DNA from: Sabellastarte sp. h YS-2021
Lineage: Eukaryota; Annelida; Polychaeta; Sabellida; Sabellidae
Length of the DNA stretch: 64,000 nucleotides
Direction: 5' to 3'
Assembly: GCA_964017235.1 (NCBI GenBank)
Contig: OZ024936.1
Location: forward strand, 37,594,040 to 37,658,039
How positions within the stretch are numbered: position 1 is the stretch's first letter; every line of letters starts with the position of its first letter. The notes beneath the pieces are model-generated. The model was not told the DNA's origin. It did no database searches and was given only the letters and a program-made list of their open reading frames with translations. The position numbers and the translations under genes are program-made. Positions 1,869 through 64,000 of the stretch are shown one piece after another.

Positions 1869-2185
1869 ATTTTTTCCTTAGATACAAGGTACACTCTATA
1901 TCGCTCAGTTAGTAAGGTTCAAAGTTTTTGATAAGGAATATTCAATCTTATACTACGCACCTCGGATTTGTTTGTTTCTACGATCTTTTATAAACTTTTC
2001 AAATATTTATGAGCCACCTAGCCACTCCCTTTTATTAAAGTACAAAAGTTAAGGCTATGGCTTGGCTAAGGCCTTTTTTCAAATCCGGGTATTTAGGTAA
2101 AATACATTGTTTGTTGTGTAATAAATTTAACTAAAAATCCTACGCATCGAGTGGCAAATTTATAAAAGATGGCAGTTACATTTAG
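1869..2185. other. Divergent intergenic region of Polinton 1
   Basis: AT-rich DNA between the minus-strand basic protein gene and the plus-strand zinc-finger/ATPase region. It could hold promoters for both. No motif beyond AT-richness is claimed. Confidence 0.4.
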
Positions 2186-3153: not shown

Positions 3154-3242
3154 CTAGTCGACCTCAAACAAGATACAGCTGATGAAGACAGGCTTAGGAC
3201 TAATATTATAAAAGGGGTTGGAAAGCGTAAGATGCATCACTG

Positions 3243-3958
3243 ATGCATCACTTAACATCTGTTAGTGAGCAGGGAAACAGTGTGAAAAAAAGAGTTGAAG
3301 ATATATATAAAATGGATAAAAGGCAATGGTCTTGCATCGATTGCAGTATTATTTTTGCATCTACAATGGACCTACAGAAGCACGTTAAAAGAGCGTCTCC
3401 TGAAAATGATGACTGTGTGATGAAAATACCGACAAACCCGATGAATCTGGATGGGATAACATAGTGCAAAGAGTGTATAGAAAGTACGATGACCAACACT
3501 CTGAAAAGGTTGAATCCTACGAGAAAGAGGGGTATTCTGAAGTAGAATCGAGAAAAAAGGGCACAGAAGATTTATTTTGGAAGTACAGAAAGGGTATTGT
3601 GAAAAGTTATGCCAATATTTTAACGGTGCATCATTTGAAAAGGAGTACGATACACCAGGAAGTGATGGAAGAGATCCAGACTTTAATGAGTGAAAAACAT
3701 TACCAATTCGTCCAGGTTTTGAAAATAGTACTTCGACGAAACTCATCTTTGTTCGATGAGCTTATTGACAGCGAAGAAGACGATGATGATAGGAGTACGG
3801 ATGAGGAATCCGATTTGCATACAGAGGAAGAAAGCTCTGAAATGGATGGGGAATCCGATCCGCATGCGCAGGATGAAAGCTCTGAAACAGATGGGGAATC
3901 CGATCCTCATGCACAGGATGAAAGCTCTGTAGAAAGTTACAAGACCCCTTACAATTAG
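3243..3958 (+). pseudogene. Zinc-finger plus acidic-tail gene region of Polinton 1 (fossil)
   Basis: A C2H2-like finger (CIDCSIIFASTMDLQKHV) is followed by a charged helical region and a strongly acidic, serine-rich tail with near-perfect repeats of ESDPHAQDESSETDG. The tail ends at the inner edge of the right TIR. I do not know its function; its place after the ATPase suggests an accessory factor of the element. The region looks broken at least once. Confidence 0.55.
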
Positions 3959-4055
3959 GCAGTTCCTGCGTAGATTTTATTGAACATCCGAATTTTTAAT
4001 GAATAAAAAGGTTAAAAACCAAAAATAAATAAAAAAATAAATAAAAACGAAAAAA

Positions 4056-4241
4056 ATGGAGCATGCGAGATATCACCCCAGGATCGAATACGTGGAAAAA
4101 CTGCCGAGCAAGAAGAATTACGTAGATGCCAGAGAATGCGCCATGGCGGGTTTACAGTACGGGAAAGCCAGATTCGGTAATGACCTAATAAACGTGAGAG
4201 TCTTAAAAGACAGTAAAGTCATAGAATCTTGGCAACAATGA
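4056..4241 (+). CDS. Small TIR-encoded protein, right copy (61 aa, unknown)
   Basis: Counterpart of the gene at 1260-1466: same start (MEHARYHP), same middle (LPSKKNY, CAMAGLQYGKARFG) and same end (VIESWQQ). The A/T-rich leader just upstream is shared with the left arm. Unknown function; see the left copy. Confidence 0.6.
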   Translation: MEHARYHPRIEYVEKLPSKKNYVDARECAMAGLQYGKARFGNDLINVRVLKDSKVIESWQQ

Positions 4242-4349
4242 GCCTCGGTTGGGGTCCCGAGGTGATACCCTCGTCTTTGAGCGAATAATGCCTTCCGATT
4301 GTCAAAAAGGAGGGGGGACCAGGAAACCTTGCGATGGATTACATTTGAT

Positions 4350-4765
4350 AGGCCTCATGTGCGGTTTGTGCGGTGCACATTGTGTTACGTGTGCCCACAT
4401 TGTGTTACATGTGTTACGTGTGCGGTTTGTGCACATTGTGTTACACGTGCGATTTGTGTGGTGCAGATTGTGTTACATGTGCGGTTTGTGAAGGTCAAAT
4501 GTGTTACATGTGCGATTTGTGGGGTTCACATTGTGTTACATTTGCGCACATTGTGTTACATGTGTTACATGTGTGGTTTGTGAGGGTCACATGTGTTACA
4601 AGTGTGCACATTGTGTTACATGTGCGGTCTGTGCGCTGCACATTGTATTACGTGTGATGCACATTGTGTTACGTGTGCGCACATTGTGTTACACATGCAG
4701 TTTGTGAGGGTCACAGGTGTTACATGTGCGATTTGCGAGGGTCACATTGTGTTACACGTGTGATT
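4350..4765 (+). repeat. GTGTTACATGTG-type tandem array, right TIR copy
   Basis: The same degenerate repeats as 850-1145, about 120 bases longer. The length difference is the main difference between the two TIRs and points to slippage or unequal exchange after insertion. Confidence 0.9.
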
Positions 4766-5567
4766 TTATGCGTCACACATGTTATATCATAATGAACGCT
4801 TTGGTATAGTTAAAATTCGATTCCCGTTATTGCTCATATATGGTAAATTTGATATCTGGACTCACTGATTAAGACGCTTCTCGAATTTTTAAAATCCGAC
4901 TATCCCGCTTGAAAAAGCGAATTATGTGTCTCTTAATGTAATTACTGAATATTTTTTATTAACGGCTTAACAGGAGAGTGTTTGATATCAACATGTTCAT
5001 CTGGAGATATGCATCAAGGTCCTTTTTGAATTTTTAAAATCGGACTATTCCTCAAAAAGTTATAAGCATTTGAAAATTATACATTTATTACCCCACACTT
5101 TTTTCCAGATCATTAAACCCTTATTGTTTCATTTCTTTAGTGTTATGATGGATCTGTATATAGCTGTAAATGTCCCTTATTTGTTGCTATAAATATGTAG
5201 ATGCTTAAATATTCCAAAGTTGTTTAGTTTACTAGTTTTTTAAAGGTCTTTACATGTTTGCTGGTTTGAATTTACCTGCATAATTTTATTTGCCTTTATG
5301 TAGCTTTAAATGTTGTTTATTTGTTGGTGATGCTATGAATATTTTATGTACTTCATTCCAATAAATGTATTCCATTTCATCCTAATTTTCACAGATAATT
5401 AACACCCCCTGCATTAAGTAAACCCCCACCTCCCCCCCATATCCCCCCTTGCACAGATGGTCCGTGATTTGAACTCTGGTGGCTGTTTGGTCACAAAATC
5501 TATATGGCCCCCAAAGGGGTTGGTATCAACATGTTCATGCTATACAGCCTCCTATACTACTCACAGC

Positions 5568-5733
5568 CTCAAGTGGGAAAGCTGGTACTTGCTTGCTGTT
5601 GGTCGGCAGTTTACAGTATAGAACCCTGATGAACTGTATTTACTGGTTTTCTCTGCCCTTCCAACTACCCCTCGTGTTATGACCTGTACAGTGTTGAAAG
5701 CGACGTAAAACCCCAAATAAATAAATAAATTTC
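5568..5733 (+). repeat. tRNA-derived SINE, right piece
   Basis: It continues the SINE begun at 1-34: AAGTGGGAAAGCTGGTA, TTGGTCGGCAGTTTACAGTA, then GAAAGCGACGTAAAACCCC and a tail of (ATAA)n. It matches the complete copy at 21319-21555. Confidence 0.9.
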
Positions 5734-5758
5734 AAGAGTATGAGTGACTTGTTTATTG

Positions 5759-5788
5759 TCCTAATCTAATCTAATCTAATCTAATCTA
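5759..5788 (-). repeat. (CTAAT)n microsatellite, 3' tail of the LINE
   Basis: Six CTAAT units on the plus strand, i.e. (ATTAG)n at the 3' end of the minus-strand LINE. Confidence 0.93.
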
Positions 5789-5926
5789 CTGCTTTGCAGG
5801 TGCAATATCTTCCCCACAAAGGGGAACTCAGTGTGCTGACTTAACAAAATCATTATCATAAAGAAAGTCAAGGGGCGTTCAAGGTCAGTAATCCAGAGTT
5901 GTGGGTGTGACCAAGAGGGAAGGAAA

Positions 5927-6550
5927 CTAAGTTGGAAAACTAGAATTAAAGAGGTGGGTTTTGAGGTGTTTCCTGAAAGATGTGACAGAGGGGCTATTTC
6001 TTATTTGGAAGGGGAAGGAGTTCCAGAGAACTGGGGCATAGCGACTGAAAGAATTGGAGAAATGTTTGACTGATTTATGAACCTTACGGTCGAAAGTGGG
6101 AGTTTGAAGGAATTTGAGTTTGGGGGTACTTCGCCTTGTGTTCCTGGAAGAAGTGTAGGGATGAATTAATTCTCTAAGGTAAACTGGTTCACCCTGGTTG
6201 AGAGTTTTGTATGTGATGAGACCAATTTTAAATTGCATCCTATATTTGATAGGGAGCCAATGCAGTTTTTTTAATTGATGGGTAATGTGACAGTATTTGG
6301 AGGACTGGGTGACAACCCTACAGAGTGAGTTTTGAACTAACTGCAATCTTCTCAACTCAAAATCTGTAAGTGATAAGAATAAGGAATTGAAGTAGTCCAG
6401 TCTGCTGCTCACCAAAGCATTTCCTAGAAGAACTGATGTGTTAAGGTCTAAGAGGGGACGGATTCTATAGAGGTCTCTCGCATGAACTCTGGTGGACTTT
6501 ATGACCTGTGACACATGGTCTGGGAATGAAAAATTGGAGTCGAACACCAC
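5927..6550 (-). pseudogene. LINE C-terminal domain after RT
   Basis: FDSNFSFPDHV, SSRLDYFNSLF, LHWLPIKYRMQFKIGLITYK and LWNSFPFQIRNS are the conserved blocks found after RT in CR1/L2 elements. It ends at a stop about 140 bases before the (GATTA)n tail. Confidence 0.85.
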
Positions 6551-7757
6551 TCCGAGGAAGGAGTTGTTTACGGTTGTTTTTGGAGCCTATCAGGATAAAC
6601 TCAGTTTTCTCAGGATTGAGTTTTAATTTGTTTGCAGACATGAAATTTTGATTGTCGCTTAGACAGTTTTTTAGCTTTTGTATAGAGTGAGAGAAGTTTG
6701 TTGGTGTTAGTGTTATGTATAGCTGAGTGTCATCGGCGTAGAAATGGTGGTTTATACTACTGTGAGAGTGAATGATTGAGCTAATTGGATTAGTGTAGAG
6801 GGAAAACAGAATTGGACCAAGGACGGAGCCCTGGGGGACCCCATACTGGATGGCAGCAGGATGGGACGGTGTGTTACCTACCTTGACCAAGTGAGTCCTT
6901 CCTGACAGGTATGATTTGAACCAGCCAAGTGCTAGTTCACTGATACCGTAGTGAACATTAAGTCTGTCTAGGAGAATGGTGTGGTCAATGGTATCAAATG
7001 CAGCTGACAGATCCAAGAGGGTGAGGGCTGTGACAGACCCTTTGGCCATATTGAGGAGAATGTCGTTGTGGATATTAAGGAGAGCACTTTCAGTTGAATG
7101 ATGTTTTCTATATGCTGATTGAAAGGCACTCATAAGGCCAGCTTCGTCAAGGTGAGTTTGTAACTGGACTGCCACTACCCTTTTAAGTATCTTTGAAATG
7201 AAGTTCAGATTGGAGACAGGCCTATAGTTTTTAAGAATTTCTTTTTCTAAGGATGATTTTTTGAGGATGGGGGTAACATGGGCCTGCTTGAAGCAATTAG
7301 GGCACTTCCCTTGTTCAAGGGAAGCATTAATTATTGAAGTAATGGGAGTAATGAGAACATCCAAATAATCGAGAACAAGAAAAGTGGGCCAAGGGTCAAG
7401 GGAACATGATTTACATGGAGATTTCATTATGATTTTAGTTACTTGATCCTCAGTAACAGTAGAGAAGGTGGAAAGCACTGGAGGAGGAGAGTCTGGGGCG
7501 ATGTGTTGTGACTTCTGGGAGATAGGAAAAGTTGAACGTATTTTTTCTATTTTTTCTGGGAAGAACTCCACAAATCTGTCGGCCAGGAGCCGAGGGGGAT
7601 TTATTGATGGTAGCATCCTGGCTGGGAGTCTGTGTAACACATCGCCAAGGACTCGCCATAATTTTTTGGGGTCATGATGGATATCCTGAATCTTTGCTTT
7701 AAGAAATTCTGATTTGGCCTGGATGCAGGTTCTGTTGTATTGGTGGACTTTTTGCAT
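6465..7757 (-). pseudogene. LINE reverse transcriptase domain
   Basis: A non-LTR RT: NYRPVSNLNFISKILKRVV, SAFQSAYRKHHSTESALL, LDLSAAFDTIDHTILL, YGVPQGSVLGPILFSLY and the catalytic FYADDTQLYI. The HHSTESALL and AFDTIDH blocks are typical of the CR1/L2 group. It lies between the endonuclease and the C-terminal domain. The frame is lost near 6560-6580, just after ILIGSKNNRK, where the C-terminal part continues one frame over. LINEs do not need this for naming; the clade is moderately sure. Confidence 0.9.
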
Positions 7758-22780: not shown

Positions 22781-25700
22781 TTAAATACAGCTTCTGGACA
22801 GGGCGTCCGCACAGATATTATCCTTTCCTTTAACATGTTCTATTTGAAGATTGTGTTCTTGCAACATTAAACTCCAGTTCAATAATCTTCTATTTTTGTT
22901 TTTCATTTTGTGCAAGAAGACTAAAGGATTGTGATCTGTGTATACAACGGTGGGTTTTGACGATGAAGATATGTATATGTCAAAATGCTGGATGGCCAAA
23001 ATGAGTGCTAAAAATTCTTTTTCTATTGTAGAGTAGTTCTTTTGATGAACATTAAATTTTTTTGAAAAGTAGCAGATGGGATGTTCAATATCTTCATTAT
23101 CACATTGCAGTAAAACTGTACCTGCACCCACATCACTGGCGTCTACAGCCAGCTGGAAAGGTTTACTGAAGTCCGGAGCAGTTAGTACGCGCTCTAAACA
23201 GAGAAGGTTCTTTACTTTGTCAAATGATTTTTGACAAGTCTCTGACCAGTGATATTTCACATTCTTTTTCAATAGTTCAGTCAGTGGAGCAGTGACCTCT
23301 GAAAAGTTTTTGCAAAATTTTCTATAATATCCTGCCATTCCAAGGAACCTCATTAAGCTTTTCTTATTTTCAGGAATGGGGTAGTCAATGATGCTTTTGA
23401 CTTTGGCTTTGATCGGTGTCACAACTCCATGACCTACTACATGCCCTAAGTACACAACCTTTGCTTTTACAAAGTCACTCTTTGATAAATTTACAGTGAG
23501 GTTTGCCTCTTTGAGCCGAAACAAGACTTGTCCAAGCCTTTTTAAATGTTCTTCCCAAGTATCACTAAAGATGACAATATCATCCACATACACTTCAACA
23601 CCTTCTAAGTCTTTTAAACATATATTCATTAGTCTTTGAAATGTGGCATGGGAGTTCTTCATGCCAAATGGCATCACCTTGTACTGATATAGACCATCAG
23701 GGGTCACAAAGGCTGATATTTCTTTGGCCCGCTCAGTAAGAGGCACACACCAATATCCTTTCAGTAAATCACACTTTGTGATGTATTTGGCATTGCCAAT
23801 CCGATCAATACAGTCTTCCATCCTTGGGATAGGGAAGGAATCCGTTTTACTCAAAACATTAACCTTTCTGTATTCAGTGCAATATCTGATTGAACCGTCT
23901 GGTTTCGGGACCAAAACACAAGGAGATGCCCAACTACTTTGACTTGGTTCAATTATATCTTTTTCTAGCATATATTGCACTTCCTGCCTTAATTTTTCGA
24001 GCTTGATAGGATTTACCCAATACGGATGCTGTTTGATCGGACGGGCATCGCCAATATCGACATCATGCATGAGTATATTTGTCCTATTAGGGGCATTTGG
24101 GAACACTGACTTGTACTTTAAGAGCAATTCAATGAGTGGAACCCTCTTATCTGGTGGTACATGACTCAGTTTGGTTTCCAAATCATCAAGGATCTCAGAA
24201 TTACTCAACCTAATTTTACATTCAACATCAAGATCAGGAGCGTCGTCCCATATTTCGTGCTCCTGATTACTGTTACTTTCTATATTACAGTCAGTAGCCA
24301 TAACAGGCTTCTTCACACCCCTTTCAAAGTATGGTTTTACCATATTCACATGACATAGTTGGCTTGACTTTCTTCTGTCCGGGGTTTCAATGATATAGTC
24401 CAGGTCACCTACTCTCTTTAACACTTTGTATGGCCCGTGATATCTGGCCTGTAACGTATTTCCCTGGACAGGTAGTAACACTAAAACCTTGTCACCTGGT
24501 TTGAAAGTACGGTTTTGCGACTTCCTATCGTAAAGCATCTTCATTTTTGACTGAGAATTTTTCAAATTTTGTTGCGCCAGCTCACAAGCCTTCTTCAACT
24601 TATCTCTGAACTTTGAAACATAATCTAGCAGATTTAGGCTCTCGGTGTTCTCAGATAACCAATTTTCCTTCAACAGCTTGAGAGGACCACGGACTGAATG
24701 GCCAAAGACCAACTCGAAGGGACTAAAGCCTAAAGACTCTTGAACAGACTCTCTAACTGCAAACAATAATAAGCTGATGCCTTCATCCCAGTCTTTTTCA
24801 TTGTCTAAACAATATGTCCTAATCATATTCTTCAAAGTGGAATGGAACCTTTCAAGTGCACCTTGGGATTCTGGGTGATAAGCACTAGATTTGATCTGTT
24901 TGGCACCTAACTGAAATACAACCTGTTGAAATAGTCCTGACATGAAATTTGACCCTTGATCTGACTGGATTTCTTTTGGTAAGCCAACTAGAGTAAAGAA
25001 ATTAACCAGAGCTTTTGAGATTTTGGGAGCTGTTATGTTGGTCAAAGGTATGGCTTCGGGAAATCTGGTTGAAGCACACATAATTGTCAAAAGATATTGG
25101 TTTCTGGATTTAGTTTTTGGTAAGGGACCTACACAGTCAATTATCACTTTGCTAAATGGTTCCTCAAACGCTGGAATGTGTTTGAGAGGAGCTACAGGAA
25201 TTTTTTGGTTCGGCTTCCCTACCATTTGACAAATGTGACAAGTCTTGCAAAATTCTGCCACACAGTGCCGAATTTGAGGCCAATAGAAATGTTTGGTTAT
25301 CTTGTTGTAAGTTTTGTTGATGCCTAAATGGCCACCCATCGGAGACTCATGGGCCAATTTCAGTATCTCACTTTGGTACACTTTTGGCACAACAATCTGG
25401 TGTACTACTGACCATTCTTCAGATGCAGGGATATTTGGTGGCCTCCACTTTCGCATAAGCACACCATTTCTGACATAATAGCCTACAGGGACCTTATCTA
25501 GCTCTACTGGTGGCAACACCAACTTGAATAAAGGAGCTAATTCAGGGTCATTTTCCTGCTCTGAAATCAATTTTGATTTTGAAAGCGATACATCTTGACA
25601 GTCAATTGAGTCTTGTTTTTCAGAATTTACCCTAACCTTGGGATTAGTATCACTAGAATTCTGCACATCATGGTCATAGTTGTTTAAGAAGGTATCTGAC

Positions 25701-49975: not shown

Positions 49976-50789
49976 AGATACAAGTATGTAACCTAGATTA
50001 CAAGTTTTACATTTCTTAGCACGTCTAACACATTTACCTTAACTGGGTGACCTAACATTTCTTTCCTTGTTTCTAAATTTAATTACAGCAGTGGCTAATC
50101 TTATTGCTGTCTGTGCAACCCACCTTTTGGGGCATTTCTGACCCTCTTGTTAAATTTTACATGAAATAAAATTAATCTCAAAGGGAATAATTTGAAAAAA
50201 ATATATACAAAATTCCAGTTTCAGTATTTTAAAAAATGTGTAATGTGTGCTGGGGTAATGTGTGTACAAGTACTAGAATTTGATATTCTATTTGTAAAAT
50301 ATTGCACAGGTTGTCACAATTCCTTTCATGTCATAATACTGTGTGTTTCTGTAAAGAAACCTATCTAGCAATACATAGGCTATCAACATACCATATTTTA
50401 TTAAGCGTCCTGCTTGTTTGTATTTAGGGGAGAGGGGAGAGAGAGTGGGTCCGCCAGCTCCCGCATTTTCTATTGCTTATAGCTCGCCAACCACGGGGCG
50501 GATTCTCTCCAAATTTAGCATGTTTGCAGTAGCCCTGGGAAAAATTTCTGAATATGGTGTCATGACATTTCAACCAATCAGAGAAGTCACATGACCAAAA
50601 ACATGTTTTTGAAAGGGGCAGTGCTTGTCCAGATGATAACTTAAAAAGCGCTTCACCTATTCACATAAAATTTGGCAAGTGGGCTCGTTATATGGAAGTC
50701 TGGAAATCATTAACTTTTGGAAGTGATCCAGTACAGAATGGCCAACTTATTAACGATTAACTAAACGACATGATTTTTCTTAACGATTA
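49976..50789. other. No gene recognised
   Basis: AT-rich, then a GAGAG run near 50430-50445. TATAGCTCGCCAACCACGGGG near 50475 resembles the start motif of the neighbouring arrays. Confidence 0.45.
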
Positions 50790-51600
50790 AAATGAAATAT
50801 CTTTAATATCTCGGAAATGGTGCGAGATGGAGCGATTTTGATGAAATTTTCGACCCGCAGAGCATCTGCAGAATCTACTGGCGATTTTTCCCAATAATCA
50901 CTTTCCCGCCATTTTTGGGGGCCGTCTTGAATTTCTGCAGAAAATGCAAAAGCGCATTTATCTCATAAATGGTGCAAGATAGAGCGACAAAATTTTTCAC
51001 CCATAGGATATGAGTGTACCGGCGACTTTTCCAAGAAATCGCTTTCCCGCTATTTTTGGCGTCCATCTTGAATTTCTGTGTAAAACGCATTTATCTTGGA
51101 AACAGTGCGAGATAGAGCAATTTCGATGAAATTTTTGACCCACAGGGTTTAAGGAGAGTCTACTGGTGACTTTTCCCAAAAATCACTTTCCCGCCATTTT
51201 TGATGGCCATCTTGAATTTCTGCTTAAAACACAAAAGCGCATTTATCTCAGAAATGGTGCAAGATAAAGAATTTGGATGAAATTTTTGACCCGCAGGGTA
51301 TCTATAGAGTCTACTGGCGACTTTTCGCAAAAACTGTTTTCCTGCCATTATTGGCGGCCATCTTGAACTTCTGCGTAAAACGCAAAAATACATTTATCTC
51401 AGAAACGGTGTGAGCTAGAGTGTTTTCGACAAAATTTTTGATCCTCATGGTATAAGCAGAGTCTGCTGGTGATTTTCTAAAAATCGCTGGCGACTTTTTC
51501 CAAAAATTGCTTTCCCGCCATTTTTGGCGGCCATCTTGAACTTCTGCGTTAAATGCAAAAACATATTTATCTCGTCATCTTGAATTTCTGCGTAAAAAAA
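50790..51600 (+). repeat. About 148-bp array, 5 units
   Basis: TTATCTCAGAAATGGTGC(A/G)AGAT, TTTTTGACCC(A/G)CAGGGTAT and CCCGCCATTTTTGG recur near 50812, 50957, 51090, 51240 and 51390. It shares the GGCGGCCATCTTGAATTT phrase with the arrays at 46.4-48.9 kb. Confidence 0.88.
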
Positions 51601-52547
51601 ATACACATTCATCTATGAAACCTTGTATTTTGGCACAAATGGAAAAATATATTAAACACAGTAAGATGTTCATTTCTACAAAATCATTAATACTCATTGG
51701 ACGCTTTGTTTTTGCTATTCAAAAACAATAATTATTTCTTTTTCTCTTGTGAAGCAATATTGTAGTTAAATTTTCATTTAATTGATTTTTATTTATATGA
51801 CAGTTCTTTATTTTGTGTTACTTGAATCGATAGGTTTCGCAATTAGTTTGTTGAATACTGACGCACAGAATTATGATATGCACGGTATTGTGGCAACCAG
51901 TGTGCTAGTAAAACTTCAGCAGTAGGTATGGTTAGAGTAAAATATTGCTAGACCTATATTTGTGAATTATTGCTAGAAAATTCAACATGTTTTCTTATTT
52001 TCTTAAGTCTGCATACTTGTGTACAAGTACTAGCATTTGATATTTTAGTTGTAACATAATGCTAGATTTTATATTTCTAAAATATAGAAACCCCCATCGT
52101 GACCGCATATTTTCTTCACTCCATGAGATGTTTAGGATACCAGCTTGAACCGCACTCTAGTTATTTACTGGAATACGACAAAGGAATGCTACCATACTGT
52201 AGAATTTCTTCTCGAGTGTGGTGATTAACTGTACTCCAGCCACTTCATTAAAAAAATAAACTCCAATAAAAATCAGACATTATTATGACCCAACACAATT
52301 GTGACCACCCATGTACTGCTTGCCAAGCAGTTATGGTCAGGACATCAATTATCGTCACTCAACATTAGTGTTGTTAACGGTTTTCCGGTATGCGTATTTT
52401 GTTTCGTTTTGGTAGAAAAAACGAAATCTGCAAAGAATATTTGGGAACCGGTTTTTGAAAGCATTATTATTTTAGGCTTTCTAATGGCTGATACTTCATC
52501 AAAAGAACAAAAAATGTACATATTTTGTTAAATATGTCACATTTTAT
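51601..52547. other. No gene recognised
   Basis: AT-rich DNA; short frames lack domains. Confidence 0.5.
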
Positions 52548-53735
52548 GTCGGCTGACTTGTCAGTCAGCTGACATAAAGGTGTCACTCTGCGGCATCTGG
52601 GTACGCATACGCGTCCGCGTGAACAACTTCTTTTCCAAAACCACAAGACCCAGAGACATGCTGTTTTTTTTAAAAGACACCTTAACTATCGAGGATGACA
52701 AAGTGTTCAAAGCATGCAGATCTGTTCGCTCGTCTGTTCCCTAGAGCCATTACAACAGAGTTACCCCCACCTAAAGTGTGAAAATTTCAACACTTTATCA
52801 TAATTTTCTCATTGACTATTGCAGGGATTTTTCTCTTTTCTTGCATATATGTACTATTCCACTAGTAGATGCCGTTGTGTAAGTATCAGGCCTGGATCTT
52901 TCATAATTATTTTTTTTATGATTTTTTTGAAATAATTTTTACCCCACAGCCCTTAAGGGCTGCCGGGGTATTGTTTTCACCCATGGTGTCCGGATGGGCG
53001 GGCGTGCGGGTGGGCGGGAAGAAGATTGTCCGGCCTGTATCTCAGAAACCATAAGGTGTAGAAAGTTAATACTTGGTAGGGACATTGGTTAGGGGGTGTA
53101 GGTGTGCAACGTCATGGTGTGACCTTAATTTGACCTTTGACCTTTCTGTAGTGACCTTGACCTATAAAATCTTGTCCGGGCTATATCTTGGAAACTGTAA
53201 GGTGTTGGAAGTTGATAGTTGGTATGGACATTGATTAGGGGGTGTAGGTGTGCAACGTCATGGTATGACCTTGATTTGACCTTTGACCTTGCCGTAGTGA
53301 CCTTGACCTATAAAATCTTCTCCAGGCTATATCTCGGAAACCGTAAGGTGTAGGAAGTTGATACTTGGTAGGGACATTGGTTAGGGGGTTTAGGTGTGCA
53401 ACGTCATGGTCTGACCTTGATTTAACCTTTGACCTTGCCCTATAAAATCTTGTTTGGGGTATATCTTGGAAAACCGTAAGGTGTAGGAAGTTGATAATTG
53501 GTAGGGACATTGGCTAGGGTGTGTGGATGTAAAACGTCATGGTGTGACTTTGATTTGACCTTTGACCTTGCCGTAGTGACCTTGACCTATAATGCCTTGT
53601 CTGGGCTATATTTGGGAAACCATAAGGTGGTTGGAAGTTGATATTTGGTAGGGACATTGGTCGGGTGTTATATGTGTGCAACGTCATGGTGTGACCTGGA
53701 TTTGACCTTTGATCTTGCATATCTGAAGCTATTTT
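52548..53735 (+). mobile_element. Head-plus-satellite composite element, CAGCTGAC family, copy A
   Basis: It starts with a palindromic word pair (GTCGGCTGAC ... GTCAGCTGAC), then a head of about 370 bases shared with 58100-58460 (CGTCCGCGTGAACAACTTCTT, GTGTGAAAATTTCAACACTT, GCATATATGTACTA). The head is followed by a different tandem array: five units of about 145 bp (ATATCTTGGAAACCGTAAGG, CAACGTCATGGTGTGACCTT). No coding sequence. Confidence 0.65.
53020..53725 (+). repeat. About 145-bp satellite, 5 copies
   Basis: TATCTCGGAAACCGTAAGGT-like starts near 53036, 53182, 53330, 53463 and 53610, with GGTAGGGACATTGGTTAGGG and TTTGACCTTTGACCTTG at fixed offsets. Confidence 0.92.
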
Positions 53736-54136
53736 ATCTCTCTACAGGGATATCTAATACTATTTTATCTCTCTTATATCTCTCTCTTATATCTTTTACT
53801 TGAATCTTGGTTGTTGCACCTTTGGCTGTCTTTTGATGTAGATTAAGCACTGTTAAAGTCACATTAGAATTCATTAACTGTTTTACTTTTGCAACTTCCC
53901 ATTGTAACAGATGGTACAAGAGAGCCACAGGTTTTGGCCGAACTCCACACAAAAGCATGTTTTGCCACATCTGTATGTATGGGTAATATTCAAAACTTGC
54001 AAACCATAATTCGACCATACAAATGAATATCAAAATGGGAGAAGTCTTAAAGCTTCATAATTTTTAGTTAACTGAATTGTCCTGATTTAATACTTAATCT
54101 TTACATGCAGTTTCTTTCTCTTAGATGTTATTTTCT

Positions 54137-54410
54137 CTACTTAAACATTATTTGGACACTGTATAATATAAATACCTCGTAGCAGGCTGTGCTAGGGCTT
54201 CTGGAGAGTTCACTGGTCACTTGCTCACTGTAGTAAGTCAGGTAGATCCGCTGTACAGTAGGAAATATGAAGACTTCTGTTGAGAGGCAACCAAAGATAC
54301 TAACGTAAACGAACACTCTGCGAGTACTAAAATCTTTCACCGGGATATCCGTACGGCCGTCGCGTAAATCCCGGAAATCTCCACGATTTACTACACTGTC
54401 TCCCCTTAAA
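54137..54410 (-). other. Purine tract and probable LTR start
   Basis: The minus strand reads TTTAAGGGGAGACAG followed by TGTAGTAAATCGTGG. Downstream in the presumed LTR lies a TATA-like TATTTATATTATACAG at about 54175-54160. The LTR's far end cannot be fixed because no second copy is present. Confidence 0.5.
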
Positions 54411-55384
54411 TTTTTAGGATATATACTACTTCTAAATACACTCTAAACTCTAGCTAGCATCTAATCTAATAATCTAGATTACTACAAGAAGCCATCTAAG
54501 TTGATATATTTTCACAAAAATTTTGCATCTACAAGAATACCTTTGTAGACATACTAACTCTAAATAACACAACTAATCTATCAAGCATCACTAATCTAAA
54601 TCAGCATAAAGGCTTTCTAAAGTAATACATTTAACACAAAAAATTTGCATATGCAAAAATAAGTTTATAGACCCAAAATGTACTTTACGAATCGACCCTA
54701 TGTAAGTCCCTATGTATTAGAATATGTTAATTCTATCACACTGTCATATATATAAGACATATATAAAGGTTGGATACTCACAGCTTACTTTGTCAGATCC
54801 ATGCAAGTGATATGTCTACTATAAATTACAAAAAATACATATGAATGTACAAGCATACAAATATTAAATAGATAAACACTCTTCCAACAACCATATATAT
54901 TGGAAATCTGCAGTTGCTTGTTGGCTTTAATGATGTTTGTGCCCGGACTAATAGTGTCACAACATCTATGTGAACATTAGCCACTAAACATACAGACTAT
55001 TTGAAAGAATACATCACAATACAATTTAACCTCTAAGACCTTGCATGTTAGAAAATACAATAGCAATACAAAGTACTTTCTAACAACCTTACATGTTAAA
55101 AAGTACAATAAACAATACAATTTACTTTCTGACAACCTTGCATGTTAGAAAATATATACAACTCTATAAAACAACAGTAGTGTTTATTACATTTAACAAT
55201 ATCTAAATATTATTTTTACAAGAAGATACCTATACAAACTGTTGACAAGGCTCAATGGCATCACAACAGATAATAACATAACAGTTTATAATTACTCTTT
55301 GTACAATACATAACCTTATAAATAAAACCAGAATCCTGCCAATTCTGATTCCTAGCTCAAATTTTATACAATGCTACAGTATTT
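54411..55384. other. AT-rich 3' region with short repeats
   Basis: CTTGCATGTTAGAAAATACAA-type units recur three times at about 55035-55150. No gene. Confidence 0.6.
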
Positions 55385-56653
55385 TTAAAAGTTGACTGCA
55401 GGACCCACTGATATGATCTGCCTAGTAATTTTGAAACTTCCACTGCTACTGCTAAAACTAAGCCTGAATGACTTTCTCCCCCATGCTGAACACAGATATG
55501 GAGAATCACTTTCCAACCCAAAACGACTCATTTGAAGAGTTGTTACTAAAGCCCTGGTTGTTCTGTTTCCTATACACTTTGGAGCTAGCCCAAACCTGAC
55601 ATTGGGAAATAATCCTACCCATTCCAGTGCTTCTCCCACATCCCCTTGAAAACAGTGTACATGTATCCTATGATACCTTGGTAAAACTTTACTCAAAATG
55701 TGTCTGCAATCCCTACCAGCTTTCCCATGACCTGCTGCATTCTCTCTACAATGTATCACAACTGCTTTATCATGTATGACTGCCAGAGGTAACAAAGTCT
55801 TTAACACTAACCTTTGGGCTCCCCAAGTGTTCTCTGCATGAGTGTAGTCTAACCCTACCTCTCCTAATCCAACCACCCTGTTACCTTTTAACAACCTATC
55901 CAAAATATGGTAATGTTCACTTTCAAAACTAGTCACTAGTCTAGGATGGAAAACAAATGCCCACCATAATCTTGAGTCTGGAATTTCTGAATGGCACACC
56001 CATTTGTTTGGAAAACACAAATTGCCAATAAGACAACCCATGGTCAGAGGCTCACCTACTTTAGAATCAACTTGTTTTAGATTTGAAACCCTGTATTTCT
56101 TCAAAAGCATCTCTGGATGAAAATGAGAGTCGCAACCCTGAACCTCATTATTTGAACCATCAAACCCAACACCTTCAATCTCCCTAAACAGGATTACCCT
56201 ATCTGGGCTCAGTACCATGAGAATGTTGGTCACAGTTCTCCAATGCAACAATTCCTGCAGATCACTCTGAGAAATACCTTTTATTTCATCCACTAGCTTC
56301 TCAGAAACTAAAGTAACATTTTTGTCAATCACATGAGGTTGCACAGTGCAGAGACTCTTTTCTTTTACATACATGGCTAAAGCTAAACAATCTACCAGTC
56401 CTAATTCCCTACATAGGAAAGACAGAATTTCCCCATAAACACTCAGCAATGCGCTATCTTCTACATCTTTTACATCTAATAATTTTGGGAAATGGTATCT
56501 CATGACATGTCTCTTCACAACTACAGCACGGCCTTGGCACACTGGACAAGAATGCAGTTTTTTATGGCCTACCTTAACAGGTATAGATTGGCCTCCCACA
56601 TTTAGACTATGTCTTTTAGAGGTAGTGGCACATCTTCTTTGATTACATTGCAA
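55385..56653 (-). CDS. TatD-type metal-dependent nuclease with N-terminal zinc finger (422 aa)
   Basis: An open 422-residue frame. The N-terminus holds a C2H2-like finger (HSCPVCQGRAVVVKRHVMRYH, about residues 33-54). The C-terminal half (from about residue 170) has the TatD DNase motifs in order: CDSHFHPEML (metal-binding HxH), VVGLGEVGLDYTH, AVVIHCRENAAG, IHVHCFQGDV and FGLESDSPYL (the Asp near the end). TatD enzymes are TIM-barrel Mg-dependent DNases/exonucleases; TATDN2-like proteins are the closest animal type by motif. It lies downstream of a Gypsy RT on the same strand and upstream of a purine tract and probable LTR, the place of env in retroviruses. It has no intron. Alternative: a host retrocopy next to the element. 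Domain call sure, element membership moderately so. Confidence 0.83.
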   Translation of the reverse strand: MQCNQRRCATTSKRHSLNVGGQSIPVKVGHKKLHSCPVCQGRAVVVKRHVMRYHFPKLLDVKDVEDSALLSVYGEILSFLCRELGLVDCLALAMYVKEKSLCTVQPHVIDKNVTLVSEKLVDEIKGISQSDLQELLHWRTVTNILMVLSPDRVILFREIEGVGFDGSNNEVQGCDSHFHPEMLLKKYRVSNLKQVDSKVGEPLTMGCLIGNLCFPNKWVCHSEIPDSRLWWAFVFHPRLVTSFESEHYHILDRLLKGNRVVGLGEVGLDYTHAENTWGAQRLVLKTLLPLAVIHDKAVVIHCRENAAGHGKAGRDCRHILSKVLPRYHRIHVHCFQGDVGEALEWVGLFPNVRFGLAPKCIGNRTTRALVTTLQMSRFGLESDSPYLCSAWGRKSFRLSFSSSSGSFKITRQIISVGPAVNF

Positions 56654-57067
56654 GGATACCCTTCCTCATAATAGTCCAGCTCTATATCCATGCTAAAACA
56701 TTGCAGAATAATAAGGAATTATAGTAGCTGTTAATGCTAGTTCTCATTACAACATTGTTTGAATGTAAAAATGTCATGGATACAGAGACCTAAAAGAAAA
56801 ATACAAACGATGTGTCATTAATCTAAAGAGCAATATGTTCCAACTGCTTTCAGCCACTGACCTGAAACTGTCTCTTTTTCTACAAGTCAAAAGATTATGA
56901 TTTATTATTAAAATGTTGAACAATAATCTTGAGTTTTACTCCAGTGCAAAACTCAAGATACATATAAAATATTACATTTTCCTTAACATTAACCCCTTAC
57001 ATATTTTAACAATTTAAACAGAACAACCAGCTATATTTAACTATAAATTACCACATTTACAATGACT

Positions 57068-57292
57068 TTACAACTCAAAATCAAGGAGATGGGAGGGTTT
57101 CTTCATTTTCCGCCCCTTTGATGTGGTAACTGTTGCTTCTGCATTTTCAAATAATTCTTTAATACCATCATAACACACATCACTGTCTTTTCCTCTGGGA
57201 TTGGTTCTTTGTTTCTGTACGGTCTTATGATTTGGTTTTGTTTCTGAAGTATTATTCCTTTGTTCAGTATCTCCTTTATCCTCGAACAACAA
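57068..57292 (-). pseudogene. Short Lys/Thr-rich frame after the RT region (fossil)
   Basis: A 74-residue frame with no motif that I recognise, ending SHLLDFEL. It lies between the RT part and the TatD gene and is probably the remnant of the end of pol. Confidence 0.35.
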
Positions 57293-58070
57293 TTTTCTTT
57301 GTCGCCTGACCCAAAAATTGTAGTACCAATGTCATTGCTCGCATAAATGTAGCTGGAGCATTAGTCAGACGAAATGGCATACGCTTGTATTCATATAACC
57401 CATACTTAGTGATGAAAGCAGTCTTGTGTCGATCATTTTCATCCATCTCGATTTGCCAGTAACCAGAGTTTAAATCTACAGTGGACATGTATTTCAGATT
57501 TGAAAATAATTCTGCACACTGTGAAAATGATGGGATTGGCCAAACCTGCTTGACAGACTTCTCATTAACAACTCTGTAGTCTATGCACCAGCGAATTGAT
57601 CCGTCTTTTTTCCACACTAAAACGGGTGCAGATGCCCATTCAGAGATGGAGGGTGTTATTACACCACACTCTAACATGGACTTTAAATGCTTTTCTTCCT
57701 CTTCCTGAAATCCAGTCGGTGTATGGCGCATTCGTTGTTTCACAGGTTTTGAATCTCCAGTGTCAATGGAATGTTTTATGGCCGTAAAACATCCTAAATC
57801 AGTATCACTTTTGGCAAAGACATTCTGGAAATCATTTAGTAAAGATGCAAACTGTTCTGACTCACTGTCAGATATATGTTTACATGATTTCCTGAACATT
57901 TCTTGCAAGTGACATGGAACCCTGCTGCAAAGATATTTCTTTTTATCAGTTTCAGTTTTATTTCTGCCCACTTCAGTGTCTTCATTAACTGAATCAGAAC
58001 ATTCAGCATTCTGTATTGAACGAATCAAACAGGTTGGTGAACATTCTTCAGTCAAAATTTGAGCTTCCAT
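57276..58070 (-). pseudogene. Gypsy RT region (fossil)
   Basis: KHSIDTGDSKPVKQRMRHTP, CGVITPSISEWASAPVLVWKKDGS, RWCIDYRVVNEKS, STVDLNSGYWQIEMDE and YKRMPFRLTNAPATFMRAM are the leading RT blocks of Ty3/Gypsy elements. The catalytic palm with the YxDD block is not seen. Confidence 0.9.
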
Positions 58071-58489
58071 GCAATTGCCTATGACTGATCCTTTTTTATG
58101 TCAGCTGACTTGTCAGTCAGCTGACATTATGTCGTCACTCTGCGGCGTGGGCGTCCGCGTCCGCGTGAACAACTTCTTCTCCAAAACTACAAGGCCTAGA
58201 GACATGCTGTTTTTTTTCAAAAGATACCTGATCTATCGAGGATGAAAAATTGTTTAAGGCATGCAAATCTGTCTGTTCGTCTGTTTGCTAGAGACATTAC
58301 AAGGGAGGTACCCCCACCAAAAGTGTGAAAATTTCAACACTTTATCACAATTTTCTCAGTGACTATTGCAGGGATTTCTCTCATATCTTGCATATATGTA
58401 CTAGGCCAGAGGTAGATTCTCTTGTGTGAGTATGAGACCTGGATCTGTCTTAGTTTTTTTTTAATAAATTTTTTTAATAATTTTTAATG

Positions 58490-60365
58490 CATTAAAATTC
58501 ATGAAATCATGCACTAAATCACTTATAACTTGAAAAGTGTTGCATTTAGAGCATTTTGTTAAAATATGTTATTCAGCTACTTTTTTCATAGCTACAACAT
58601 GGTGAGTAACTTGGGTGTCTGTCTCAATAGCTAAGTGAGTAATAGCTACTTTTGGGCTTTTCAGTAACTACCATCTTGAGTAAAATCACTTGCAACTTGA
58701 AAACTATTGCATTTAGAGAATTTCGTATAAATATGTTATTCAGCTACTTTTGGGTCAGCTATAACATAGTCAAATTTCAGACCTGTAGCTCATGGCATAG
58801 CTGAGTAATAGCTACTTTGAGGTTATCACTGTTGAGTAAATCACTTATAACTTGAAAACTATTGCATTTACAGAAATCTGTGTAAACATGTTATTCAGCT
58901 ACTTTTGGGTCAGCTATAACATAGTAAAATTACAGACCTGTAGCTCATGGCACAACTGAGCAATAGCTATTTTCAGGTACTGTATGTTGAGTAAATCAGT
59001 TGTAACTTGAAAAATATTGCATTTGGAGTATTTTGTTAAAATATGTTGTTCACCTGCTTTTGGGTCAGCTATAACATAGTGAAATTACAGACCTATAGCT
59101 CATGGCATAGGTGAGCAATAGCTATTTTCAGGTTCTCACTATTGAGTAAATCAGTTGTAACTTGAAAACTATTGCATTTACAGTATTTTGCTTAAATATG
59201 TTGTTCAGCTACTTTTGGGTCAGCTATAACATAGTAAAATTTCAGACATGTAGCCCATTGCATAGCTGAGTAATAGCTACTTTTAGGTTATCACTGTTGA
59301 GTAAATCACTTATAACTTGAAAACAATTGCATTTACAGAAATTTGTGTAAATACGTTATTCAGCTACTTTTGGGTCAGCTATAACATAGTGAAATTACAG
59401 ACCTGTAGCTCATGGCACAACTGAGCAATAACTATTTTCAGATACTGACTGTTGAGTAAATCAATTGTAACTTGAAAAATATTGCATTTACAGTATTTTG
59501 CTTAAATATGTTGTTCACCTACTTTTGGGTCAGCTATGACATCGTAAAATTTCAGACATGTAACTCATGGCATAGCTGAGTAATAGCTACTTTTAGGTTA
59601 TCACTGTTGAGTAAATAACTTATAACTTGAAAACTATTGCATTTAGAGTATTTTGTTTCAATGTTATTCACCTATTTTGGGGTCAGCTATAACATAGTAA
59701 AATTTCAGACCTGTAGCTCATGGCATAGCTCAGTAATAGCTACTTTTAGGTCATCACTGTTCAGTAAATCGCTTATAACTTGAAAACTATTGCATTTACA
59801 GAAATTTGTGTAAATACGTTATTCAGCTACTTTGGGGTCAGCTATAACATAGTCAAATTTCAGACCTGTAGCTCATGGCATAGCTGAGTAATAGCTATTT
59901 TCAGGTTATCACTGTTGAGTAAATCATTTATAACTTGAAAACTATTGCATTTACAGAAATTTGTGTAAATATGTTATTCAGCTACTTTTGGGTCAGCTAT
60001 AACATAGTGAAATTACAGACCTGTAGCTCATGGCACAACTGAGCAATAGCTATTTTCAGGTACTGACTGTTGAGTAAATCAATTGTAACTTGAAAAATAT
60101 TGCATTTACAGTATTTTGCTTAAATATGTTGTTCACCTACTTTTGGGTCAGCTATAACATTGTAAAATTTCAGACCTATAGCTCATGGCATAGCTGAGCA
60201 ATAGCTATTTTCAGGTTCTCACTATTGAGTAAATCAGTTGTAACTTGAAAACTATTGCATTTACAGTATTTTGCTTAAATATGTTGTTCACCTACTTTTG
60301 GGTCAGCTATAATATAGTAAAAATTCAGACATGTAGCTCATTGCATAGCTGAGTAATAGCTACTT
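58490..60365 (+). repeat. About 155-bp satellite, 12 copies
   Basis: TTATAACTTGAAAACTATTGC starts recur near 58540, 58700, 58855, 59005, 59160, 59320, 59470, 59630, 59780, 59935, 60085 and 60245. TCAGCTACTTTTGGGTCAGC and CTCATGGCATAGCTGAGTAA lie at fixed offsets. Units alternate between two subtypes (GTGTAAATATGTTATTC and GCTTAAATATGTTGTTC). Confidence 0.94.
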
Positions 60366-61090
60366 TGCTTATAACTCACTTATTATTGGTCCTACAGGTT
60401 TGGGATGGTAAACAGACATATAGGAAATCATGGGCTGGGAATCTGTTGATGTGGTCCGATTTGACCTTGGACCTCTTCTTCAAGGTCAAACGAGGATAGC
60501 CAAACTTAAAAGTGCTTATAACTCGCTTATTATTGGTCTTAGAGGTTTGGGATGGTAAAACAACATATAGGAAATCATGGGCTGGGATTCTTTTGGTGTG
60601 GTCAGATTTGACCTTGGACCCCCCCCCTTCAAGGTCAGTTGAGGATAGCCAAACTTAAAATTGCTTATAACTCACTTGTTATTGGTCCTACAGGTTTGGG
60701 ATGGTAAACCAACCTACAGGAAATCATGGGCTGGGAATCATTTGGTGTGGTCGGATTTGACCTTGGACCCCTCCTTCAAGGTCAAACAAAGATAGCAAAA
60801 CTTAAAAGTGCCTATAAATCGCTTATTATTGGTTCTAGAGGTTTGGGATGGTAAACCATCCTATAGGAAATCATGGGCTGGGAATCTTTTGGTGTGGTCA
60901 GATTTGACCTTTGGACCCCTCCTTCAAGGTCAAATAAGGACAGCCAAACTTAAAAGTGCTTATAACTCGCTTATTATTTGTCCTAGAGGTTTGGGATGGT
61001 AAACCAACCTATAGGAAATCATGGGCTGGGAATATTTTTGTGTGGTTGGATTTGACCGTGGATCCCTTCTTCAAGGTCATACGAGGATAC
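60366..61090 (+). repeat. About 147-bp satellite, 5 copies (same family as 45655-46245)
   Basis: GCTTATAACTCGCTTATTAT recurs near 60368, 60513, 60662, 60810 and 60957 with GGAAATCATGGGCTGGGAAT and TTTGACCTTGGACCCCTCC at fixed offsets. Confidence 0.94.
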
Positions 61091-61331
61091 TGCATTTGTA
61101 GTATTTCTTTAAATATGTTTTAACCTACTCTTTACACTTAAACAGTTACCTTGTTACTTTCCTTCATAATACCATTTGCAGGGCACAACTTTTTTGTCCT
61201 TTTCTTCTGTCAGGTTCAGAATTTCTTTTGAACATGCTGTTCAAGTACCATTTACTGTACTTCTGTACAGCACTTTCCCTGATCATTATGCTTTCCTCTC
61301 ATTATTACCTTCACAAATCAAAAACACTCAG

Positions 61332-62324
61332 TCAGCTGACACAGTGCCCGTTCACGGGCACTCTCCTTTTGTTTAGAGTATGGTACCTGCCAGTAAGATT
61401 CCAAAAATTAATTGGAATTTCTTTGTCACCATTGACTTTCACCAATGCATAAGGTGAGCAATAATTATCTGAGACTACTGGTGAAAAACTGCAAAGGTCT
61501 TCCATTTGATATTCTGATAGGCCTTTCTCAATTTTCATGGTATAAGGTGGTAGTACTACCTTTTTATTTGTGGTAACTCTACTGATTTTAGGCTGAGTCC
61601 CCTGACCATTTTTCTTTAAAATGGCTGGTATAATTTCACCATTGACAGTAACTTGGTTACTTTGCAAGTTCACTATGCCCTTGTTCTCTATCAAGAAATC
61701 AATGCCTAAAATAACCTCATCTGCAAGTGATGCCACATAAATATTCCAGTCATAGAACTGCTTACATAATCTAACAGAAACTGACTTAACAACTTTGGCT
61801 GGAATATTATTTATGGCAGTAGCATCTTTCAAGATTACTTCCTCCACCACCAAAGGCTGAGGTGTCATGTCCTGAAAGATCTTTTCACTTACCACTGTTA
61901 CTTGAGCTGCTGTATCAATGACTGCTTGACACTGAACTCCATTGATTTCGGTGGGAATTACAAGACTCCACCCTTCATTTCTTGCCATATGTATTTCTCT
62001 CATGTCACCAGCTGATTCAGCTTTTCTTTCTTTCTTTCTAACATTTTGCTTCTTTCCTCCTTCATATGCCATATGTCCATTTTGTTGGTTTCTTGTTTTA
62101 ATACCAAAATCAGAAGGATCACCAGATGGAGGCAAAGCTGTATCAATGACAGAAAAGCAACCACCCAATTCACCTGGACTGACTCTAGCATTCTTTTGAC
62201 CAGCTGATTTATTAGGAGATGTCAAAGTTGTATCTAGGGCAAAATTGTCATCACCCAATTTATCGTCACATACCAATGGACTGGCTTTCATTGTAGGATC
62301 AGTAAGTTTACCAGATGACACCAT
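61332..62324 (-). pseudogene. Retroelement aspartic protease region with repeated linker (fossil)
   Basis: QCQAVIDTAAQVTVVSEKIF is the catalytic D-T-A block of a retropepsin, and VILGIDFLIENKGIVNL is the second conserved block. The N-terminal part is a low-complexity linker with about three diverged repeats (LDTTLTSPNKSA, IDTALPPSGDPS). The stretch after the protease (LPPYTMKIEKGL) is typical of the Gypsy protease-RT spacer. Confidence 0.85.
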
Positions 62325-62449
62325 AGCTGTATCACGGACAGAAATGTCATCACCCAGCTTACACTGATCCCCACCCTATGGCCTATCTCGTTAGCTGAGT
62401 GTAGGCCAGCACACTCAGCATCTCCTAGTTTAAATTTTTCCTTGGTGAT

Positions 62450-64000
62450 CTGTTTCTCAGGTTTGGTCTTGGAGACTCAGAAGGCTTGGACTTGTTTGGA
62501 CAGTCTTTTTTACTTATCCAGGCCCTATAGAAGCAGGGGTGGTAGGTGGCTTCCTGTGTTTTTAGGAAGCCTTTGTCCAGTTTTTGCCAGTATACAAGTC
62601 TTCGCTCTTAGAGGACATTTTTTTCAACCAGACTTTTCAGGGACAAAGTTTGCTGGAGGAAGGTGATTGAAAAAAAAGAAAAAAAGATGAGAATCAGAGT
62701 TTTGATAGAAGCTGTTTATGAAATGATTGACAAAAGGGCGATAACACCAGTCAAAGTGTCACATCGCTGGAAGTTTACAGTTTATTTCTTGTGTTAAGCA
62801 AGGAAGAAATGGCAGTCAGTGATAGTTAAGGTCAGGTAAACAAGTTTTGCATGTACCTTACTCAATATGAAAACTGTTGCAATATTCGGCATTCGTTTAT
62901 AGATAGCGAGTGGATGACGTCACTCAAAATTATGGATGTACACATTCTTCACCGATACACCCAGCTAACAAAAGTATCTTCGCTTCATAGGAGGCGACAG
63001 ATTCTACCAGTTCACTGCCTTACCCTTCAGTATTGCTACAGTTTTTCTCGAGTTCACCATGGTAGCAAAAGAGGTGAAGCTGATGGCTCTCGCAGAAGGC
63101 ATCACTATTCACCAGTATATAGACAGTTGGCTAATGAGAACAAACTCAAAACAGCATGGCAAAGAGAACACCCACTGGTTGGTAGGTTGGTAGGTTGGAT
63201 CACAAATTTCTAAAAATCAGATTTATTTCCAACTCAACTAACCTCAAGGTAGGGCTAGTCTTCCCAACTCAAAAGGAAATCGATTGTCTTCTTGGAAAGA
63301 CAGTTACCATGTTAAAAGCCTCTCACTCATCTCCAGGGAAGCTCATGTCACTTTGAATGCATGGCTTCAATGGAGAAGACTATACCATTGGGTTGTCTGC
63401 ACATGAAGTCACTCCAATGGTATCTGGAAACACTGCAGATATCCTCAGTCTCTGGATATCCCACTTCTTGTGTCTCTGGTTCACAGGGATCATCTTCAGT
63501 GGTGGACCAATCGTTCAATGTTGAAGGAGGACTCGCCACTCCTTCAGAAGGAGCACAGTCTCCTTCCTTTCACAGATGCTTCCCTAAAGGGTTGGGGGTG
63601 CTCACTTGAAGCATCCACAGCCAGTGGTCTATGGAATCAGGAAGAGTCAAGGCTCCACATAACATTCTACAGCTAAAAGCAATGTTGTTAGTTTTTAAAA
63701 ATGATTCAGAAATCAGCTTCTCAATCGAAATCTGTTGATTTCCACAGATAATTCATTAGTGGTTGCCTATATGGATAACTGGGGAGGCATCCACTCTCAG
63801 GTAATATGTACCTTAATCTGAAGAATCATGGTTTGGACGAATGCCAGGATGATTCAGATTCAGAAAAAAGTGTATCCAAGGGGGCTATGAATCCTCAGGT
63901 TTTCTATCAAATTAGCCATTGCTGCTATCAATCAGTGGTTGATGTGTTTGCAACAAAGATGAATCACAAACTTCTTATATAGGTCTCCTGTCAGGCTTGG
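62450..64000 (+). mobile_element. Second DIRS-type fragment, runs off the window (fossil)
   Basis: From about 62930 it holds RT pieces (an LPFSLATAP-like region near 63020, HQYIDSWLMRTNS near 63110) and RNase H pieces (FTDASLKGWG near 63575, a TDNSLVVAYMDNWGG-like region near 63745). The sequence is clearly related in plan to the DIRS at 38069-44179 but not close. The left edge abuts the broken Gypsy near 62440. Broken in many places. Confidence 0.75.

Follow-up and report, generated by a model that had tools for sequence, protein, structure and literature searches.

Predicted zinc-finger TatD nucleases encoded between pol and the 3' LTR of Ty3/Gypsy-type retrotransposons in the annelid Sabellastarte

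The stretch of DNA analysed here (the window, 64,000 nucleotides, part of contig C14 of the Sabellastarte assembly) carries on the minus strand, at positions 55385–56653, an open reading frame of 422 amino acids, hereafter ORF3. Residues 175–388 match the PF01026 TatD_DNase profile (8.7e-28, 97.8 bits, cut-off 27 in the Pfam search), and are preceded by a helical region and by a C2H2-like finger (CPVC..HVMRYH), read from the sequence as CxxC-x9-H-x4-H. All six TatD metal ligands are kept. The frame is broken at both the 5' and 3' ends. A 3' splice site (ttttag) adjoins an ATG at 56691, which marks the probable start of ORF3; this segment (56654–56698, minus strand) is separated by a frame break from the TatD frame, and the DNA alignment of the window to L033, a sister-subfamily element, starts at 56697. 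Because this splice site and ATG lie in another frame, the listed TTG is probably not the true start. Other copies are homologous only up to residue ~392–395 of the window ORF3, and the C-terminal frame has therefore been lost too.

Remnants of a pol gene are located upstream on the same strand. The C-terminal end of pol (57068–57275) terminates with ...GRKMKKPSHLLDFEL at ~57068, which resembles by eye the ...GRERRRPRHLQDY motif found in intact copies. It is flanked by a reverse transcriptase (RT) region (57276–58070, minus strand; RVT_1, 2.7e-13), in which the end of the RT, the RNase H (RH) and the integrase (IN) are missing; tblastn queries with RNase H and integrase from the L016 copy gave no match in window positions 50001–64000. 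The window RT is 61% identical to the L016 RT, and 91–96% identical to the RT at 7 other loci. A protease (PR) part of the retroviral aspartyl type, borne by a gag-asp protease ORF, resides at 61332–62324 (minus strand; PF13975, 9.7e-09; 27.6% identity to the L012 pol ORF). RT and protease are set apart by later insertions at 58094–61070, recognized by repeat comparison as a palindrome-headed repeat and tandem arrays of ~155 and 148 bp. On the opposite side, ORF3 is followed by the polypurine tract AAATTTAAGGGGAGACAG (54396–54413, minus strand) and by a 3' LTR (54173–54395, minus strand) which starts with TGTAGTAAATCG at 54395. Tract and LTR start are shared with L033; the far end of the LTR is approximate, being set where similarity to the L033 LTR ceases. 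A 5' LTR was not found in window positions 62000–64000, nor in the following 10 kb. The initial annotation had described a zinc-finger/TatD protein with readable metal-site motifs, preceded on the same strand by a Gypsy RT and followed by a purine tract and an LTR start, and all these features are present. The window copy is nonetheless a relic, degraded from an element of a Ty3/Gypsy lineage, and what is claimed below stands on the other copies.

Additional repeats mark the region. Copies of the repeat with a near-perfect palindrome at its head are found at 52542–52928 and 58094–58475 (83–90% alike), the latter inside the TatD-Gypsy copy. Tandem arrays surround or interrupt the element at 53005–53718 (~146 bp), 58515–60425 (~155 bp) and 60365–61070 (~148 bp). 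Another Gypsy-type pol, ~32% identical to the pols of TatD-Gypsy elements, lies at 22793–25480 on the minus strand. In the adjacent flank (C14:37658040–37668039), ORFs at ~3799–6601 on the plus strand resemble by eye the tyrosine recombinase and RT of a DIRS-like element.

The search for further copies covered the whole assembly, made by 1,785,957,881 bases in 647 contigs. The best 147 of 649 candidates obtained with the PF01026 profile were scored, and all 147 exceeded the cut-off; many of them correspond to intronless open frames of 680–1239 amino acids. Nineteen loci (L010 to L028), selected for ORF length and diversity and thus not a random sample, were fetched. In 14 of the 19, the TatD sequence is preceded by an RT of the same orientation. 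Of the others, L015 retains RNase H and integrase only, L010 and L023 miss RT and integrase, L017 has no RT, RNase H or integrase in the fetched stretch, and in L027 the RT is in opposite direction. Pfam analysis of six ORFs from four loci identified gag (L010), protease, RT, RNase H and integrase (L016 and L022) and TatD (L010, L012 and L022).

Association of RT and ORF3 was also measured starting from the RT. The best 145 of 15182 candidates matching the window RT were scored, and at least 112 of the 145 are followed on the same strand, within 10 kb and mostly at 3.5–7 kb, by an ORF3. Pairs were 62 when RT loci were compared to 178 merged TatD loci, 83 with 216 loci, then 106 and 112 as ORF3 matches of three families were added. 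Random placement of the 216 loci (500 rounds, the size of three contigs being guessed) gave a mean of 0.10 pairs, and a maximum of 2. At this same stage (216 loci, 83 pairs), ORF3 resided within 10 kb in some other arrangement at 4 RT loci. TatD sequences are found downstream of 7 of 8 RTs at least 90% identical to that of the window, the latter included, and of 7 of 10 RTs showing 60–90% identity. For 33 of the 145 RT loci no ORF3 was present among the matches listed, and since ORF3s were counted only among these, the figure is no proof of absence; some of these loci may truly lack ORF3. A sister-subfamily element carrying RT and TatD is repeated four times, every 26.2 kb and with equal TatD scores, at C19:30980601–31064358, either by recent tandem duplication or as a matter of assembly.

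The boundaries of single elements were defined by comparing left and right flanks. L010 is delimited by 204 bp LTRs, L023 by 321 bp LTRs. In both elements the two LTRs are 100% identical and enclose the TatD ORF, and the target duplication is ATAT in L010 and GTAT in L023, or 5 bp in each if one further base is included. L010 and L023 share the primer site TGGTACCAGAAGTG and carry purine tracts. The sequence TGGTACCAGAAGT, which we take to be a primer site of the tRNA-Leu type, is found after the 5' LTR in L010, L023 and L025, and purine tracts precede the 3' LTR. In L025, LTRs 88.8% identical flank PR-RT-RH and ORF3, an assembly gap falling where the integrase is expected; a clear target-site duplication was looked for at the LTR ends, and none was seen. 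L033 is reduced to an ORF3 between two repeats, 85.7% identical over 98 bp, with no detectable PR, RT, RH or IN in between. L033 was also considered as a retrocopy of a spliced message, and this was ruled out, as the left repeat begins at the TG of the LTR; ~100 bases unlike the right LTR, which precede the acceptor, also contradict it.

LTRs of 321 bp, typical of the L022/L023 family, were identified by 43 matches at the best 40 of 236 candidates. Excluding two short ones, 41 matches were sorted into 20 same-strand nearest pairs 5–18 kb apart, one LTR being used in two pairs. Pairing is uncertain for the three overlapping pairs at C7:22.9 Mb and for three spans longer than 15 kb. Among the matches listed, 18 of the 20 pairs enclose an ORF3, which ends 102–114 bp from the 3' LTR; RT is also enclosed in 11 of the 18, not in 7. 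The remaining two pairs hold no ORF3 among the matches listed, and one of them holds an RT. The proposal that the TatD gene is found within both LTRs in other copies is thus borne out by L010, L023, L025 and the 18 family pairs, with L033 carrying the gene between repeats. The pol order PR-RT-RH-IN found by Pfam in L016 and L022 is that of Ty3/Gypsy elements, the window copy lacking RH and IN, and two LTRs with target-site duplication (L010 and L023), primer site and polypurine tract are also as in this group. The L010 gag (ORF 1166–4348) features a CCHC knuckle and an N-terminal helix-hairpin-helix, the latter scored by Pfam below the curated cut-off; to our knowledge, helix-hairpin-helix motifs are not usual in Gypsy gag. 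The order of the complete element would be LTR, tRNA primer site, gag, pol (PR-RT-RH-IN), ORF3, polypurine tract, LTR. The anatomy argues strongly that ORF3 is part of a Ty3/Gypsy LTR retrotransposon lineage, and that the TatD gene belongs to the element.

ORF3 proteins are built in a rather uniform manner. Basic residues exceed acidic residues in the first 200 positions in 17 of 19 proteins, the exceptions being L015 and L028. A finger resembling C-x4-C-x9-H-x4-H occurs in 18 of the 19, L017 having no such pattern, and a 'PPN..HWR' region is located between finger and TatD domain. The residues that we take to bind metal in TatD proteins (H, H, E, H, H, D) are kept in 20 of 20 ORF3 copies. Across 13 aligned relatives the ligands vary little or not at all, a conserved E being replaced by K in the database relative P0011. 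No DEDDy exonuclease or GDSL esterase domain was detected by Pfam in the L010, L012 and L022 ORF3s, in which only PF01026 is found at E 0.01. Ten PDB entries match the sequence of the L010 ORF3, and all are of the TatD type, including YcfH, TatD and TATDN3. The AlphaFold2 model of the relative P0015, obtained from a 13-row alignment, has a mean pLDDT of 70.5; most ten-residue blocks of the TatD part, in which strands and helices alternate, score 80–97, with dips to 58–77, and much of the rest is poor. For most ORF3 proteins the predicted layout is a basic N-terminus, then a C2H2-like finger, with a metal-dependent TatD nuclease at the C-terminal end.

Relatives were found among 5.8 billion proteins, in ENA clusters of 33, 70, 60 and 115 members. 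Others are P0094 and P0095, proteins of the window subfamily, and Mya arenaria LOC128204145 (P0021, in a cluster of 13). The ENA protein P0001 is 99% identical to the L010 ORF3, and P0023 (669 amino acids, ENA) is a finger-TatD protein with a precomputed PF08719 match as well. Two loci on viral contigs encode relatives with 24–26% identity. Partial matches were seen in 26 phage records, and in each of them less than 80% of the query was covered. A tree of TatD domains was made from 51 rows chosen from the sequences collected; P0042 and P0059, in which the cutting rule found no domain start, were omitted. ORF3s and 20 of 21 finger-TatD proteins are split by a 100/100 branch from 16 others, several of which are named as bacterial or archaeal. 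P0105 and P0107, placed beforehand with the rest, group inside, P0106 outside. A single clade of finger-TatD rows (32 versus 19 rows) was rejected (p-AU 0.016). This rejection, and the misplacement of P0105, P0106 and P0107, limit what can be said on origin.

Some families are young. Among the matches listed, the L022 family counts 21 ORF3 copies spanning the full 1039 residues at 96–100% identity, and 18 of the 21 have no internal stop. Identical LTRs and near-identical ORF3 copies point to recent activity of this family. A derivative with deleted pol is marked, among the matches listed, by one breakpoint at ORF3 residue 75 common to 4 loci and to 3 further loci which match in two pieces. Four LTR pairs of ~9.3 kb hold ORF3 and no RT among the matches listed. 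Three are loci with the residue-75 breakpoint, and the fourth (C19:69.36 Mb) has a two-piece ORF3 match broken at this residue as well. The DNA itself was examined in L023, where RT, RH and IN are missing, PR is joined to ORF3, and a 1101-residue ORF occupies the place of gag. The L010 deletion was considered as the origin of an amplified non-autonomous family, and this was ruled out, since its junction occurs at 1 of 40 scored loci.

Within families, dN/dS values of the TatD domain are 0.07–0.39 in 10 of 11 pairs, which are not independent of each other; the value of 0.84 in the one remaining pair rests on 4 changes. Between families, 4 of 6 pairs are saturated, and the other two have values of 0.16. 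Among seven inner families TatD identity is 40–53%, RT identity 80–87%. RT and TatD distances correlate among nine family representatives (r 0.94, p 0.003), a value resting on two outliers, as the correlation is not significant within the seven inner families alone (r 0.19, p 0.17). The correlation over nine representatives fits one old acquisition and common descent. A Ty3/Gypsy lineage would probably have acquired the zinc-finger/TatD gene ahead of its split into the present families, and retained ORF3 afterwards.

How ORF3 may be expressed is suggested by the sequence at its start. Of the 14 copies whose start can be read, 10 (from 7 of the 9 families) have a polypyrimidine tract and YAG 0–8 nt 5' of the ATG, compared to 88 of the 6932 background ATGs (1.3%) at the same loci, the rule having been fixed only after the sequences had been viewed. 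L024, L025, L027 and L028 all miss the rule; L024 and L025 feature CAG|ATG with a weak tract. The acceptor would be located at the ORF3 ATG, and the donor perhaps corresponds to the GTGAGT which L010 and L023 carry ~15–22 nt upstream of the LTR end; other leader sites score similarly. In both elements a long ORF at the gag place lies upstream of ORF3, so that ribosomes simply scanning the genomic RNA would have little chance of arriving at the ORF3 start. As with retroviral env, translation of ORF3 most likely uses a spliced subgenomic mRNA.

Other explanations were weighed against these data. A single locus could be explained by a host TatD gene which lies beside an unrelated Gypsy copy, or was struck by one, and the window copy, taken alone, shows a mere pol remnant and no 5' LTR within the range searched. 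This reading is hardly credible, and refuted for the Sabellastarte genome searched: at least 112 of 145 RT loci are paired in one fixed order where 0.1 pairs are expected, few show another arrangement, and ORF3 is found inside both LTRs. Capture at a single locus is ruled out by the same pairing and by the TatD loci spread genome-wide. Contrary outcomes named in the initial annotation (a single locus, copies without TatD, TatD genes outside the LTRs) were sought and not obtained. ORF3 might instead be a passenger, a host TatD gene or a processed copy of it captured by chance and copied without use. Retrotransposons do transduce host genes, as reported in the available part of PMC7264820, and ORF3 activity is predicted only. 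Retention of the six ligands in all nine family representatives, despite the TatD divergence among the seven inner families, dN/dS values well below 1 in most pairs, and the persistence of ORF3 in the pol-deleted derivative make this improbable. The env position and the probable env-like splicing would agree with ORF3 being a diverged envelope, or some other membrane protein whose fold resembles that of a nuclease. No 19-residue window reaches a mean hydropathy of 1.6 in any of 19 ORF3 proteins, crude as this test for membrane-like segments is, and in four ORF3s Pfam gives no envelope domain, only TatD above cut-off; such a protein is therefore very improbable. The env position claimed in the initial annotation holds for the place, and probably for expression; the protein itself is unlike an envelope.

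Characterized TatD proteins, according to the sections available of PMC12709183, are 3'–5' exonucleases acting on single-stranded DNA and RNA, and abasic-site endonucleases. Since they do such things, nucleic-acid processing in the cycle of the element is the most likely role. ORF3 may well, with roughly even chances, act on intermediates of the element itself; it would trim 3' ends or flaps, strip RNA from RNA:DNA hybrids, or cut cDNA at abasic sites. A target in host nucleic acid or host defence, such as RNA in silencing or R-loop structures, is rather unlikely, albeit not negligible. ORF3 diverges faster than RT among the inner families, and counter-defence proteins often diverge fast; a freely evolving accessory enzyme would fit this divergence equally. 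A host target is also suggested by TATDN2, reported in the available text of PMC12709183 as an RNase which acts on R-loops, resolving them, and which germ cells require. What weight remains falls to other roles, or to none.

Taken together, the data may depict a distinct and mobile clade of zinc-finger TatD nucleases hosted by LTR retrotransposons of Sabellastarte, and probably also of bivalves and other invertebrates. ORF3 would be a spliced accessory gene which the elements need; the pol-deleted derivative would spread keeping the nuclease, and the enzyme would work on reverse-transcription or RNA:DNA-hybrid intermediates. The clade would also be a source from which hosts may have domesticated genes labelled 'uncharacterized' or TATDN2, such as Mya arenaria LOC128204145. 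This combined picture is offered tentatively, as a possibility somewhat short of even. ORF3s are diverse, are found in more than 100 listed copies, and are partly very young, which makes their purpose testable by analyses of selection, splicing and biochemistry. Retrotransposon ORFs may also hide among animal genes annotated as TATDN2-like or 'putative deoxyribonuclease'. In the part available of PMC6962438, the Hox cluster of the giant squid is reported to contain non-Hox genes, one of them labelled TATDN2 and adjacent to a pogo-type gene; that the TATDN2-labelled gene is such a retrotransposon ORF is a guess.

LTR elements with an enzymatic third gene are uncommon. No earlier description of one bearing TatD was found in open-access literature among the matches listed. 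The term 'TatD' is absent from the main texts of PMC6238403, PMC8905726, PMC5408684, PMC9289625, PMC8220671 and PMC7264820, and no such element is described in the accessible portions of PMC6962438 and PMC5408686. ORF3 proteins share with E. coli TatD and YcfH, as with animal TATDN1-3, the PF01026 domain and the HxH, GE.G, HxR, HCF and ETDSP motifs, but are mostly 680–1040 amino acids long, carry a finger, and are encoded by intronless frames within an LTR element. Retroviruses and errantivirus-like Gypsy elements likewise have a third gene, env, which follows pol, precedes the 3' LTR and starts at a 3' splice site. ORF3 shares this position and, as predicted from sequence, this kind of splice site but, in contrast to env, features neither a membrane segment, as judged by hydropathy only, nor an envelope domain. 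In orchids, a Ty3/Gypsy lineage also has a fixed gene for an enzyme acting on nucleic acid, an AlkB m6A RNA demethylase with in vitro activity; as far as the available text of PMC9289625 goes, that lineage differs in encoding a demethylase, in residing in a plant host, and in the 25 kb length of the elements. The closest described kind is represented by the Juno and Vesta LTR elements of bdelloid rotifers, in which, according to the available excerpts of PMC5408684, ORF3 encodes a DEDDy exonuclease or a GDSL esterase, has intact catalytic residues, and is typically expressed from spliced messages. Within the limits of that text, both systems have an enzyme-coding ORF3 which takes the place of env, after pol and before the 3' LTR on the same strand, and the enzyme is a nuclease in one of the Juno/Vesta types; the nuclease is DEDDy (RNase D-like) in rotifers and TatD here, in a different animal group.
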